Origin: Brevibacillus humidisoli
GTDB lineage: Bacteria; Bacillota; Bacilli; Brevibacillales; Brevibacillaceae
Length of the DNA stretch: 64,000 nucleotides
NCBI RefSeq assembly: GCF_020923435.1
Contig: NZ_CP087263.1
Coordinates: 2,933,970-2,997,969, forward strand
Reading direction: 5' to 3'
Made by a program: the position numbers and the translations under genes. Positions 58,472 to 62,884 of this stretch are shown piece by piece; the stretch's first letter is position 1, and each line of letters starts with the position of its first letter. The notes below the pieces were generated by a model that saw only the letters and a program-made list of their open reading frames with translations, was not told the origin of the DNA and did not search any database.

Positions 58472-58727
58472 CTATCTCCATTAAACAGGAAGGGACACCT
58501 CTTAACAAGACCGAATGTCAGATAATCTTACATTATTTTTAAAGACATGGTTCTTATTCCCCTTGGATTACGTAGGAGCATCATGACCAGACATGGATGT
58601 AGGGAAAATCGGGTCATCTCTCCCTCTCATGGTCGCTTGCCTGCTTCCACTCGATAAATGGGCGTCCTTCTCCTGTTTATCCGCCATAAGATGATACATA
58701 CCTACTGCGTTGGGGGGATGGATTGTT

Positions 58728-59444
58728 TTGAAGCGTAAGAAATGGGCCAGCGTCGTACATCACAAGTATCCCGCGAAAAGCAGCCTTCACCCATACAATT
58801 TTTTTGTACCTCTGGTAGACCAGGTAAAAGACAGTGTCGTTTCGATTGTCACCGAAGGATCTTCAATCCCGTCCGATCTGAAGCAGTTTATCAACCAGTT
58901 GCTGGATAGCCAACCATTGAACGATTCGATGAAAGAACGCAGTTTTGGCACGGGATTTATATTTCATCCTCAGGGATACATTTTGACAAGTGAACACGTC
59001 ATCAACAAGTCGAAAAACGTCCTGGTCAAACTGTGGAATGGTCGCGTCTACCAAGCACAGCCCGTCGTTAGCGATTCCAATCGGGATTATGCGATTCTCA
59101 AAATCGATGCCGACCGCAAACTGCGTGCTTTGCCCCTAGGCAGTTCACGTACCACACAGGTAGGTGAGTGGGTGATTGGGATTGGTTCCCCTTTAGGATT
59201 AGAGAATTCTGTAACGGCAGGTATTATCAGCGCGAAAAACAGACGATTGCATGTCGCCAAACGCGTCTATGAGGAAGTTCTGCAGACAGATGCTGCGATT
59301 AACCCGGGAAACAGCGGTGGTCCATTGATCAATCTGCATGGAGAAGTGGTTGGGATGAATGCGTTTATCATCCAGTCCAGTCAATGTCTTGGCTTTGCGA
59401 TCGGGATCGACGCCCTAAAGCCGTATCTGCGTGATTTTTATTAA
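58728..59444 (+). CDS. HtrA-like (S1C) serine protease without PDZ or membrane anchor
   Basis: 238 residues from TTG 58728 (GGGGGGATGG upstream). Catalytic triad His90 in TSEHVINK, Asp120 in NRDYAILK and Ser196 in NPGNSGGPLIN, with IGSPLGLENSVTAGIISAKNR as in DegP/HtrA proteases. There is no signal peptide, no membrane helix and no PDZ domain, all of which HtrA-type proteases usually have, so it is probably cytoplasmic. Role unknown, possibly protein quality control. Confidence 0.88.
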   Translation: MKRKKWASVVHHKYPAKSSLHPYNFFVPLVDQVKDSVVSIVTEGSSIPSDLKQFINQLLDSQPLNDSMKERSFGTGFIFHPQGYILTSEHVINKSKNVLVKLWNGRVYQAQPVVSDSNRDYAILKIDADRKLRALPLGSSRTTQVGEWVIGIGSPLGLENSVTAGIISAKNRRLHVAKRVYEEVLQTDAAINPGNSGGPLINLHGEVVGMNAFIIQSSQCLGFAIGIDALKPYLRDFY

Positions 59445-59884: not shown

Positions 59885-60166
59885 TTACGCTACCTGCTGC
59901 AGGGCTTTCACGATAGCTGCACAGGAACGCTTGCAAAAAAGAATCGGCATCTGTCGCTCTTTCGCCTGGTTCTTGATCGTCTTGGCCAGATTGTGATTGA
60001 CAAAATCGGTAAGGACCAGAATCATTTGGACGCCGCTTGGAATCTTGAGGCCGGTTTGTGAGCTTTTTCGTCCTGTAACGTGGTAAATCTGCTCAAATCC
60101 CTTTTCCTGCAGGACATGTACGATATTGCCAAGCCGGTCGCCACCGATTACGAGTATGGCTGACAT
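59885..60166 (-). CDS. DUF2325 protein
   Basis: 93 residues: SAILVIGGDRLGNIVHVLQEKGFEQIYHVTGRK, LVLTDFVNHNLAKTIKNQAKERQMPILFCKRSC. DUF2325 proteins are small Rossmann-like proteins of unknown function, often next to metal or stress genes. Its upstream region contains two near-consensus Fur boxes shared with the divergent encapsulin operon, so it may be iron-controlled and related to it. Confidence 0.88.
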   Translation of the reverse strand: MSAILVIGGDRLGNIVHVLQEKGFEQIYHVTGRKSSQTGLKIPSGVQMILVLTDFVNHNLAKTIKNQAKERQMPILFCKRSCAAIVKALQQVA

Positions 60167-60196: not shown

Positions 60197-60233
60197 TGAT
60201 AATAAATATCATTCTTATTGATAAATATTATCA
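60197..60233. promoter_or_regulatory. Tandem Fur boxes between DUF2325 gene and IMEF-encapsulin operon
   Basis: TGATAATAAATATCA (60197-60211) and TGATAAATATTATCA (60219-60233), each one mismatch from the 7-1-7 consensus TGATAATnATTATCA, one in 22-base phase with the other. Confidence 0.8.
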
Positions 60234-60377
60234 TTCCCAATTGGCTTTGGCAATACTCTTTCTTGATAAGATGGAGATGTTGGCACACACTAGGAAAGAG
60301 ACGGATATCTGCTTGCCCGGTATGTTTTGCCAACGGTATAATAGAGTGAAATCGAGATTCCCGAGGAGGTGGGCAGT

Positions 60378-60986
60378 ATGGAGGAATTTCCGCAACTACG
60401 ATCCATATTTGAACGGACCAAAGATGGCATCGGCAAGTTTATGTCGATGTTGCAGCCCATCATCGACAACGCGCAGGATGAGCACACCCGGCTGTACTAT
60501 CACCACATCTATGAAGAAGAAGAGCAGCGACTAGACCGTTTAAATGAACTGATTCCACATCTCAATTCGATCATCAGCGAAGGCAAGGCTGCACAACTAA
60601 GCAATCGCGAGTTGTCCCGCTTACTCTCCGACATTAATCTGGAACGATTCGGCCTGCACAACTTCCGTGAACACCTGGAACTTGCCATGTACGAATTCAC
60701 AGGTGAAGAAGATCGTGAATGGCTCAGTCAAATGCGCGACAATACCCAAGCTGACTATCTGACGGTAAAAGAGGTGATGGCTGGGTTGACCGAGAGAGTT
60801 GCAGATGTGAAAGTGGGCAATCTGGTTGATCACGATGAAGGACACAGTATTCATCAGGTAGACCATCTCCAGGCATCGGCTGGTGCGCTCAAAGATACCG
60901 GGAGCCATTCATCACCTCAACAGGTGGTAGAGGTATCCAAACCAGGCAAAAAAGGTTTGACCGTAGGCAGTCTGCGACTTACATAG
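60378..60986 (+). CDS. IMEF encapsulin cargo, ferritin-like iron-mineralising protein
   Basis: 202 residues from ATG 60378 (GAGGAGG upstream). Residues 1-140 are a helical ferritin-like domain: YYHHIYEEEEQRLDRLNELIPHL with adjacent Glu/His metal ligands, and NFREHLELAMYEFTGEEDREWL. A histidine-rich linker (DHDEGHSIHQVDH) leads to the C-terminal tag LTVGSLRL, matching the TVGSL targeting peptide of IMEF cargo described for Firmicute encapsulins. Directly upstream of the encapsulin shell gene (98-base gap). Oxidises and mineralises iron inside the shell. Fur-box control. Confidence 0.93.
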   Translation: MEEFPQLRSIFERTKDGIGKFMSMLQPIIDNAQDEHTRLYYHHIYEEEEQRLDRLNELIPHLNSIISEGKAAQLSNRELSRLLSDINLERFGLHNFREHLELAMYEFTGEEDREWLSQMRDNTQADYLTVKEVMAGLTERVADVKVGNLVDHDEGHSIHQVDHLQASAGALKDTGSHSSPQQVVEVSKPGKKGLTVGSLRLT

Positions 60987-61084
60987 CTAAGTTAGGGCAG
61001 CGAGTGGATTTCTTGATGGCACTGCTGGTGACTGCTCAAACGTTGCACATGGAAAAACCGTACAATGACCACAGGAGGAAAAGT

Positions 61085-61933
61085 ATGGACAAGCTGCGAA
61101 AATTTCCGGACTCTCCCCTTTCCAAAGAAGAGTGGGAGCAACTGGACGAAGCTGTTATTGAAATGGCGCGCCGTCAATTGGTCGGTCGTCGTTTTATCGA
61201 TATTTACGGACCACTAGGCGAGGGAGTTCAAACGGTAACAAACGATATCTACGAAGAGTCCCGCTTCGGCAACCTGAGTCTGCGCGGGGAATCGCTGGAA
61301 CTGACCCAGCCGAGCCGCAGAGTCAGTCTGACGATTCCGATTCTCTACAAGGATTTTATGCTCTACTGGCGTGACGTCTCACAAGCTCGTACCTTGGGGA
61401 TGCCGCTTGATCTCAGTGCAGCGGTCAACGCTGCAGCCGGCTCCGCCTTGATGGAGGATGATTTGATCCTCAACGGTTCTGATCCGTTTGAGCTGCCGGG
61501 TCTCATGAACGTCAAAGGACGGCTGACGCACATCAAAAGCGATTGGATGGAATCGGGCAACGCCTTTGCCGATATCGTGGAAGCCCGCAACAAATTGTTG
61601 AAGATGGGCCACAGCGGCCCCTATGCCTTGGTCGTATCGCCAGAGCTGTACTCGCTGCTGCACAGAGTCCACAAAGGGACCAATGTACTGGAGATCGAGC
61701 ACGTGCGCAGCCTGGTCACAGACGGGGTATACCAATCACCCGTCATTAAGGGTAAGGCAGGCGTACTGGTTGCCACCGGCCGTCACAATCTCGATCTGGC
61801 CATCGCTGAAGATTTTGACACGGCCTTCCTCGGCGACGAGCAGATGAACCACCTGTTCCGTGTATACGAGTGCGTGGTTCTGCGAATTAAGCGCCCCAGT
61901 GCGATTTGTACGTTGGAGGAAGCAGAGGGCTAA
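61085..61933 (+). CDS. Encapsulin shell protein (IMEF type, T=4 class)
   Basis: 282 residues, the length of the Quasibacillus thermotolerans shell protein, and HK97-fold. Strongly conserved blocks: ARRQLVGRRFIDIYGPLGEG, YKDFMLYWRDV, NAFADIVEARNKLLKMGHSGPYALVVSPELYSLLHRVHKGTNVLEIEHVR, HLFRVYECVVLRIKRPSAICTL. ATG 61085 has AGGAGGAAA upstream; the open frame extends 27 codons further without similarity. Self-assembles into a large nanocompartment that houses the preceding cargo protein. Confidence 0.95.
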   Translation: MDKLRKFPDSPLSKEEWEQLDEAVIEMARRQLVGRRFIDIYGPLGEGVQTVTNDIYEESRFGNLSLRGESLELTQPSRRVSLTIPILYKDFMLYWRDVSQARTLGMPLDLSAAVNAAAGSALMEDDLILNGSDPFELPGLMNVKGRLTHIKSDWMESGNAFADIVEARNKLLKMGHSGPYALVVSPELYSLLHRVHKGTNVLEIEHVRSLVTDGVYQSPVIKGKAGVLVATGRHNLDLAIAEDFDTAFLGDEQMNHLFRVYECVVLRIKRPSAICTLEEAEG

Positions 61934-62020
61934 TCACGGCAGGCTAATGACGTCGTGTTAATCACGGCAGTTAGTTTTGAACTTAGCTCAGTGGGAATAT
62001 CCTAACCGGTTATGGAATGA

Positions 62021-62058
62021 AAACAAGCGGCACGCCTTTCACGGCTTGCCGCTTGTTT
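62021..62058. terminator. Terminator after the encapsulin gene
   Basis: Stem AAACAAGCGGCA / TGCCGCTTGTTT, usable on both strands, between converging genes. Confidence 0.88.
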
Positions 62059-62085
62059 ATGTACCACTTTTTATGAAAAGAAGCG

Positions 62086-62556
62086 CTAAGCGATCCGTAC
62101 GACCTTTGTTTGCTCCCCGGATGGGAGGAATGGCAGATCAACGTGCTCTCTTGCCTGCTCCAGTCCCACATCCTGAACCAGTATCTGCACCTCTTCCTGA
62201 AACGGAGGCGTACAACTACCCTCGTTCAACTCACACAGACGCTTAAGATGACGCAGGCGCTCTGCCAGCTTTTGTTCCCGCATCCACTCGTTTTGCAGCT
62301 CGCATACATTCACGTGCCTGGCATCGGCGATCATGCCAATCTCGTTGACGTGTACGATCAAGCGCTGCCCCTCTTCGGTGACAAAGCCGATCGAACAAAA
62401 CTGGGAAGCTGCCATTTCCAAACGCGTAATCACCGCATTCCGGTACTCCTCTCCGGAACGAAGGCGAAGCATGCCAGCCTCTACCGCACCGCCCACTTTT
62501 CGCTCATTGGCAATCACCGTATACATATCTGTGTAACCGTCGATCTGGTACCGCAT
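62086..62556 (-). CDS. 156-residue protein of unknown function, Fur-box controlled
   Basis: Soluble protein (MRYQIDGYTDMYTVIANERKV ... LEMAASQFCSIGFVTEEGQRLIVHVNEIGMIAD) followed by a charged helical C-terminal half (EQKLAERLRHLKRLCELNEG). No recognised domain, no membrane segment and no encapsulin targeting tag. Fur-like boxes at 62605-62655 lie upstream. Its 3' end faces the encapsulin gene. A role in the same iron system is inference from position and regulation. GTACACAGGAGGGCG carries its ribosome site. Confidence 0.65.
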   Translation of the reverse strand: MRYQIDGYTDMYTVIANERKVGGAVEAGMLRLRSGEEYRNAVITRLEMAASQFCSIGFVTEEGQRLIVHVNEIGMIADARHVNVCELQNEWMREQKLAERLRHLKRLCELNEGSCTPPFQEEVQILVQDVGLEQAREHVDLPFLPSGEQTKVVRIA

Positions 62557-62604
62557 AACGCCCTCCTGTGTACAGCGAAGATCAGTTCACATGATCAAGC
62601 GAAA

Positions 62605-62655
62605 TGATACTCATTATCATTATCTGCAACCATCGTATAATGAAAATCATTATCT
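62605..62655. promoter_or_regulatory. Fur boxes upstream of the 156-residue gene
   Basis: TGATACTCATTATCA (62605-62619, one mismatch from the 7-1-7 consensus) and TGAAAATCATTATCT (62641-62655, two mismatches). Confidence 0.75.
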
Positions 62656-62884
62656 GTCAATATCAAGCTCACAGCAAGGAGTGTTGTTTCTGCATGAGTT
62701 TATCGTTAGTTTATCCAGACATACTCTTTTCTAACAAACCTCTTTTGGCTCTCGTTTACCCTATGCAGTTGCCCAGCAAAAGGTGAAAAATCGTCAAGAC
62801 TCGACCCAATTTTCCGAATTTACTGTTTTCACGTGAAACAAAAAGTCAACCAAGTACCTGATTGACCTGATCATATGAAAATGC

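Follow-up and report, generated by a model that had tools for sequence, protein, structure and literature searches.

An IMEF encapsulin locus of Brevibacillus humidisoli with Fur-marked companion genes

IMEF encapsulins have been described as the largest known protein-based iron stores (PMC8346489), and the closest described relative of the locus reported here is the system of Quasibacillus thermotolerans (family 1, T=4; PMC6668986). In the parts of that paper on which we draw, the Quasibacillus system has the same cargo family, targeting peptide and cargo-shell order and provides the closest solved shell; the published reconstitution comprised cargo and shell only, and neither of the two further genes considered below, U156 and DUF2325, is named. 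How cells recover the stored iron is openly stated to be unknown (PMC11202242, PMC7762939), and a 2024 review notes that encapsulin iron release still awaits demonstration and that some factor not so far recognized may be lacking (PMC11202242). Storage genes, moreover, are not controllable by direct repression at high iron (PMC7762939). In the excerpts of the literature that we searched, a set leaving aside the 2017 Nature Microbiology IMEF survey and a 2022 review, no encapsulin release factor resembling U156 is named.

The IMEF pair and its surroundings

The locus lies near one end of the window, i.e., the whole stretch of 64,000 nucleotides that was analyzed, and contains the following features:

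59885-60166, minus strand: DUF2325 gene, 93 aa, divergent from the cargo gene (PF10087, E 1.9e-15)
60197-60211: predicted Fur box 1, TGATAATAAATATCA, 1 mismatch, immediately 3' of the DUF2325 -10 element, in a block kept in relatives
60219-60233: predicted Fur box 2, TGATAAATATTATCA, 1 mismatch, overlapping the DUF2325 -10 element, in a conserved block, surviving loss of cargo and shell
60225-60253, minus strand: predicted DUF2325 promoter, TTGCCA-17-TAATAT (TTGTCA in most relatives)
60313-60342, plus strand: predicted cargo/shell promoter, TTGCCC-18-TATAAT, apart from the Fur boxes
60378-60986, plus strand: IMEF ferritin-like cargo gene, ATG start, 202 aa (TIGR04536, PF24309, PDB 6n63)
60954-60983, plus strand: C-terminal targeting peptide of the cargo, GLTVGSLRLT, read from the sequence, motif kept in the cargo alignment
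61085-61933, plus strand: encapsulin shell gene, 282 aa, T=4 type by similarity (NF041155, PDB 6nj8)
62023-62057: GC-rich hairpin where the shell and U156 genes converge, read from the sequence, probable two-way terminator
62086-62556, minus strand: U156, a 156-aa IMEF companion gene without a name, convergent with the shell gene (co-occurrence, models)
62605-62619: predicted Fur box immediately 3' of the U156 -10 element, 1 mismatch, conserved
62632-62660, minus strand: predicted U156 promoter, TTGACA-17-TACGAT
62641-62655: predicted Fur box in the U156 promoter spacer, 2 mismatches, conserved
62917 onward, minus strand: aminotransferase gene, to the right of U156 and its Fur boxes

Profile searches assign the cargo to TIGR04536 (E 1.1e-79; 266.8 bits against a cut-off of 100) and to IMEF_Flp (PF24309, E 5.5e-57), it matches PDB 6n63 with an E value of 2e-39, and a TVGSL targeting peptide is present at its C-terminus. 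The adjoining family 1 shell is nearest to T=4 shells and matches NF041155 (E 8.8e-89); its closest solved structure is PDB 6nj8 (E 1e-123, both 282 aa), which we take to be the Quasibacillus T=4 shell. Judged by these similarities, positions 60378-61933 encode an IMEF cargo together with a family 1 encapsulin shell of the T=4 type, and so add one more ordinary example to a system already described. Systems of this kind mineralize iron within a 42 nm shell. The preliminary description of the locus had already recognized the pair, and the matches to TIGR04536, NF041155 and 6nj8 bear this out; the targeting motif that it read at the cargo end, LTVGSLRL, is also present but lacks the final T, the true end being KKGLTVGSLRLT. 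A degenerate DNA pattern for other tagged proteins in the genome was uninformative, its matches being no commoner than those in the reversed control.

Among relatives, the cargo takes unusual forms. At L103:5444-6025 and L116:6925-7492, the IMEF cargo appears as two genes, each half with its own targeting-peptide-like end, although that of L103 could instead be a cargo broken by one stop codon. Half-length (~105 aa) tagged cargos, scoring between the IMEF and EncB-type families, occur at L102:6350-6670, L109:6231-6545 and L119:6873-7205, where they still adjoin a shell gene and a diverged U156. The nearby htrA gene, intact in the window (58710-59444), is split in most Brevibacillus-type relatives (L065, L067, L068, L070, L072, L074, L076, L196 and others) by an insert of 2-3.4 kb carrying a serine recombinase (Resolvase/Recombinase) and, in L196, also an ATP-grasp gene. 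A core resembling GGTTCCCC(G/A)C is common to several pairs of junctions, and the insert could be an excisable gene-interrupting element.

As first described, the ferredoxin of the Quasibacillus system is missing from the window, and a search with a profile built from tagged IMEF ferredoxins recovered only untagged relatives in the genome (~49 bits or less). IMEF membership stands without this protein, which is an optional feature: across the 53 loci compared, ferredoxin is found in 25 and DUF2325 in 20, never together. This exclusivity is one of loci rather than genomes, because tagged ferredoxins also occur elsewhere in the genome. DUF2325 was therefore rejected as a ferredoxin replacement, since 18 genomes of the Brevibacillus-type genus g2 and genome G028 carry a tagged ferredoxin at another site (tag read directly in 11 of them). 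In many Brevibacillus-type genomes (L228-L238), the tagged ferredoxin (MRKQLTVGSLIPGR...) lies far from the IMEF locus and has no Fur box. Operon surveys would undercount IMEF ferredoxins, because many tagged copies are unlinked. The tagged ferredoxins of L107, L109, L117 and L118, three of which were scanned, score as Fer2 (PF00111) and not as Bfd-type (PF04324), against the published usage, in which they are termed Bfd homologues.

Association of U156 with the IMEF encapsulin

U156, initially described as an unknown protein, belongs to no family in Pfam, NCBIfam or PHROG, and its distribution follows that of the encapsulin. In the family sample, 33 of the 39 genomes have IMEF and all 33 carry U156, with no intact copy in the 6 IMEF-less genomes; among 398 Bacilli genomes, U156 is present in 50 of the 50 with IMEF, and intact U156 was never found without encapsulin. 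The genomes with a U156 match and no cargo match turned out to hold a diverged tagged cargo adjoining U156 (G051), a decayed U156 beside a decayed shell gene (G032) and a weak, unrelated match (G281). Within the 398-genome phylum sample, U156 was not found outside the class Bacilli.

The physical linkage is nearly as consistent. In 50 of the 53 named loci, shell and cargo lie within the flank of U156; in 2 they are 9-10 kb off; and in B. borstelensis, the one unlinked case, U156 is on another contig. The orientation of U156 varies, being convergent with the shell, divergent from the cargo or codirectional upstream of the cargo, and the association is kept throughout. On several occasions, U156 and the storage genes have disappeared jointly. 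L196 and L197 have neither cargo plus shell nor U156, probably through more than one deletion, because the aminotransferase that normally lies between them in this genus remains. The decayed IMEF loci L083:4680-5677 and L084:2264-2609 retain shell and U156 fragments, with the flanking aminotransferase intact. Given that related genomes are not independent samples, these co-losses and the spread over many families outweigh the raw counts. Relative to its nearest relative, U156 shows a dN of 0.09 and a dS of ~1.6, indicating strong purifying selection.

That most U156 copies are physically near the shell gene might be read as mere synteny, with U156 riding along while serving an unrelated role in iron starvation. 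This reading is largely refuted and highly improbable: the association survives changes of orientation, the B. borstelensis copy is unlinked, the co-losses extend across a retained gene, and DUF2325, htrA and the aminotransferases persist after the loss. Comparative genomics thus argues strongly that U156 is an obligate partner of the IMEF system, a conclusion that we regard as highly likely.

The arrangement reported in the preliminary description recurs in relatives, a point fixed beforehand as a refutation test, although the two extra genes, presented there as equal members, are not of equal standing: U156 appears to be an obligate companion, but DUF2325 is kept without encapsulin. A close type of DUF2325 stands beside the cargo across Brevibacillaceae as well as in Schinkia and Calidifontibacillus, and persists in four encapsulin-less relatives; its alignment revealed no targeting peptide. 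At L100:5229-6162, DUF2325 is directly upstream of U156 and codirectional with it at a distance of ~98 nt, and strong Fur boxes precede the two genes. DUF2325 is best regarded as a putatively Fur-controlled associate and not an obligate part. The link between DUF2325 and encapsulins may nevertheless be older, because a DUF2325 protein is listed as a possible secondary cargo of anammox encapsulins (PMC6934571).

Fur boxes and the promoters they mark

Fur boxes were defined as near-consensus 7-1-7 sites (consensus TGATAATNATTATCA), with mismatches counted against the consensus. The window contains 10 Fur-like sites with up to 3 mismatches, versus 2.6 expected. In the whole genome there are 14 sites with at most 1 mismatch, 3 of which are at the locus, and none in the reversed control; most of the 11 others adjoin siderophore-binding, siderophore-synthesis, iron-permease, flavodoxin or catalase genes (open reading frames judged by eye). 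Given this genome-wide rarity, the four Fur boxes initially noted, a tandem pair upstream of the cargo and a second cluster upstream of U156, are not chance matches, and it also holds that DUF2325 shares the first Fur region and the 156-residue gene brings the second.

The alignment of the DUF2325-cargo region from 13 loci resolves which promoter the tandem boxes accompany. A block of ~66 nt containing both boxes and the minus-strand TTGTCA-17-TAATAT is conserved; the cargo promoter, likewise conserved, lies at a variable distance of ~90-200 nt from the DUF2325 boxes and has no Fur box. At the U156 promoter, the spacer contains one box and the other follows the -10 element closely, in positions conserved in relatives. 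Fur boxes with up to 2 mismatches are found upstream of DUF2325 in 20/20 loci and upstream of U156 in 48/53, compared with ~1% for shuffled sequences. Among the 53 loci, a box upstream of the cargo is found in those sharing the region with a divergent DUF2325 and in four others, three of which have a divergent lipoprotein resembling a siderophore-binding protein (one confirmed as PF01497) and the fourth another gene; in lineages whose cargo gene shares its upstream region neither with DUF2325 nor with some other divergent iron gene, a Fur box is generally missing from the cargo. In G035, G011, G022 and G034, the storage genes have been lost and DUF2325 still has both boxes.

Collectively, comparative genomics indicates that the Fur boxes belong to the DUF2325 and U156 promoters and not to cargo and shell. 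Because the boxes are on these promoters and are retained at DUF2325 after storage loss, the accessory genes, rather than storage, are predicted to be induced by iron starvation; because they lie over the promoters and form a set shared with iron-uptake genes, these genes are predicted to be repressed when iron is abundant and expressed when it is scarce. Extrapolating from established Fur behavior, we consider it very probable that Fur represses U156 and DUF2325 in iron-rich cells. The tagged ferredoxin was not counted as a member of the Fur unit, since in most cases its box is shared with divergent U156, and unlinked copies have none.

The preliminary description had envisaged a single iron signal governing storage jointly with the two extra proteins. 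One way for this to work would be Fur activating the cargo gene from upstream as at pfeT in B. subtilis. Fur is able to activate (PMC9993123), and in every Brevibacillaceae locus boxes lie 84-255 nt upstream of the cargo. However, these boxes overlap the DUF2325 promoter, their spacing to the cargo varies, most other families lack a box at the cargo, and the boxes outlive the storage genes. With the cargo/shell promoter separate and devoid of a box, the proposal did not hold up, and we consider a single Fur signal improbable.

Candidate functions of U156

The AlphaFold models obtained for two distinct U156 query sequences are consistent with each other (pLDDT 87 and 89, pTM 0.78): residues 6-83 are predicted to form one helix plus a barrel of five to six strands, after which come two to three helices. 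In the alignment, cysteines are not conserved, one histidine is near-invariant, several polar residues are invariant, and neither end has a TVGSL-like motif. Three candidate identities were rejected: an electron carrier, for want of any conserved cysteine and with a single near-invariant histidine; an encapsulated cargo, for want of a targeting peptide; and an Hfq homologue at the level of sequence profiles, for want of a match (hhalign probability below 2%, the Hfq profile being shallow).

RNA is a frequent ligand of Sm-like barrels, so that U156 might have a regulatory function. U156 may be an Sm-like RNA-binding repressor that blocks translation of the cargo/shell mRNA in low iron, so that two successive negative steps make storage iron-induced, in the manner of Fur and RyhB acting on E. 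coli ferritins (PMC7762939). Hfq and Sm chains make up most of the structural matches listed for U156 (Foldseek E 0.04), and both models match them over residues 4-83 with Z scores of 5.9-7.2 across ~60 residues, although calpain entries score as high and Z values under 8 can reflect no more than a similar layout of elements. Such a repressor would also account for a cargo promoter without a Fur box although storage genes are usually iron-induced. Yet U156 has no sequence similarity to Hfq, the net charge of its barrel averages -1.7 versus +2 to +4 for Hfq, and the cargo leader is only ~30 nt long, with no conserved RNA element beyond the Shine-Dalgarno in the aligned DUF2325-cargo regions. 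We therefore regard an RNA repressor as unlikely.

The predicted Sm-like barrel with its helical tail, the invariant polar residues and the poorly conserved cysteines point to a factor that docks on proteins rather than to a redox carrier, and the mildly acidic barrel and missing targeting peptide favor one that works from the cytosolic side. A docking protein of this kind could be an adaptor passing shell or cargo to a protease, or an assembly blocker, so that dismantling of the compartment in starvation frees the iron. The co-occurrence and Fur evidence fit this equally well, and the fold, without redox residues, looks suited to protein docking; against it, no protease gene or known adaptor motif is consistently linked, and IMEF shells are very stable (86.6 C; PMC6668986). 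An adaptor or blocker thus appears somewhat less likely still than an RNA repressor.

The reading we prefer, on which we would place even odds, is that U156 is a cytosolic low-iron switch that acts on the shell to mobilize iron. With iron plentiful, U156 and DUF2325 would be kept silent by Fe-Fur, and iron would be stored by cargo and shell expressed from a Fur-independent promoter. Upon iron shortage, Fur would dissociate from the tandem boxes; U156 would then be produced alongside the siderophore uptake genes, bind the shell or cargo complex and promote mobilization of the mineral, in some lineages perhaps together with the targeting-peptide ferredoxin. That U156 acts on the shell, and that iron is released as a result, is what we infer, and the chance that U156 acts in iron release at all we put at slightly under even; low-iron induction fits storage shut-down as well as release, and the missing presumed electron donor, the targeting-peptide ferredoxin, counts against the release model here. 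The fullest form of the proposal, in which U156 is the missing dedicated control factor that is Fur-repressed, docks on the closed shell in starvation and triggers iron release, is more tentative. If true, the release trigger would belong to a functional class not yet demonstrated for any encapsulin protein. U156 offers a concrete candidate, knock-out target and pull-down bait for the question of iron recovery, and a practical part for engineered iron-loaded encapsulins.

Comparison with known systems places U156 apart from each of its nearest counterparts. Like U156, the ferredoxin of IMEF operons is a companion of the encapsulin, reported to co-purify with shells and proposed for iron release; however, it occurs in only part of the systems and has a TVGSL tag and a 2Fe-2S domain, whereas U156 has neither and is found in all systems sampled. 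With Hfq and Sm barrels, the modeled residues 6-83 appear to share the element order (helix then five strands) and overall shape, but U156 differs in lacking sequence similarity, in its acidic rather than basic barrel, in its long helical C-terminal part and in its obligate link to encapsulin. The logic possibly shared with the action of E. coli Fur-RyhB on ferritins is that a factor under Fur repression counteracts storage once iron is low; unlike the global small RNA RyhB, U156 is a protein encoded beside its presumed target. What is new is a third gene, unnamed, nearly universal and marked by Fur boxes, together with the finding that Fur marks accessory genes rather than storage: compared with the IMEF system of Quasibacillus thermotolerans, the present locus lacks the ferredoxin and adds U156 and DUF2325 under Fur boxes.
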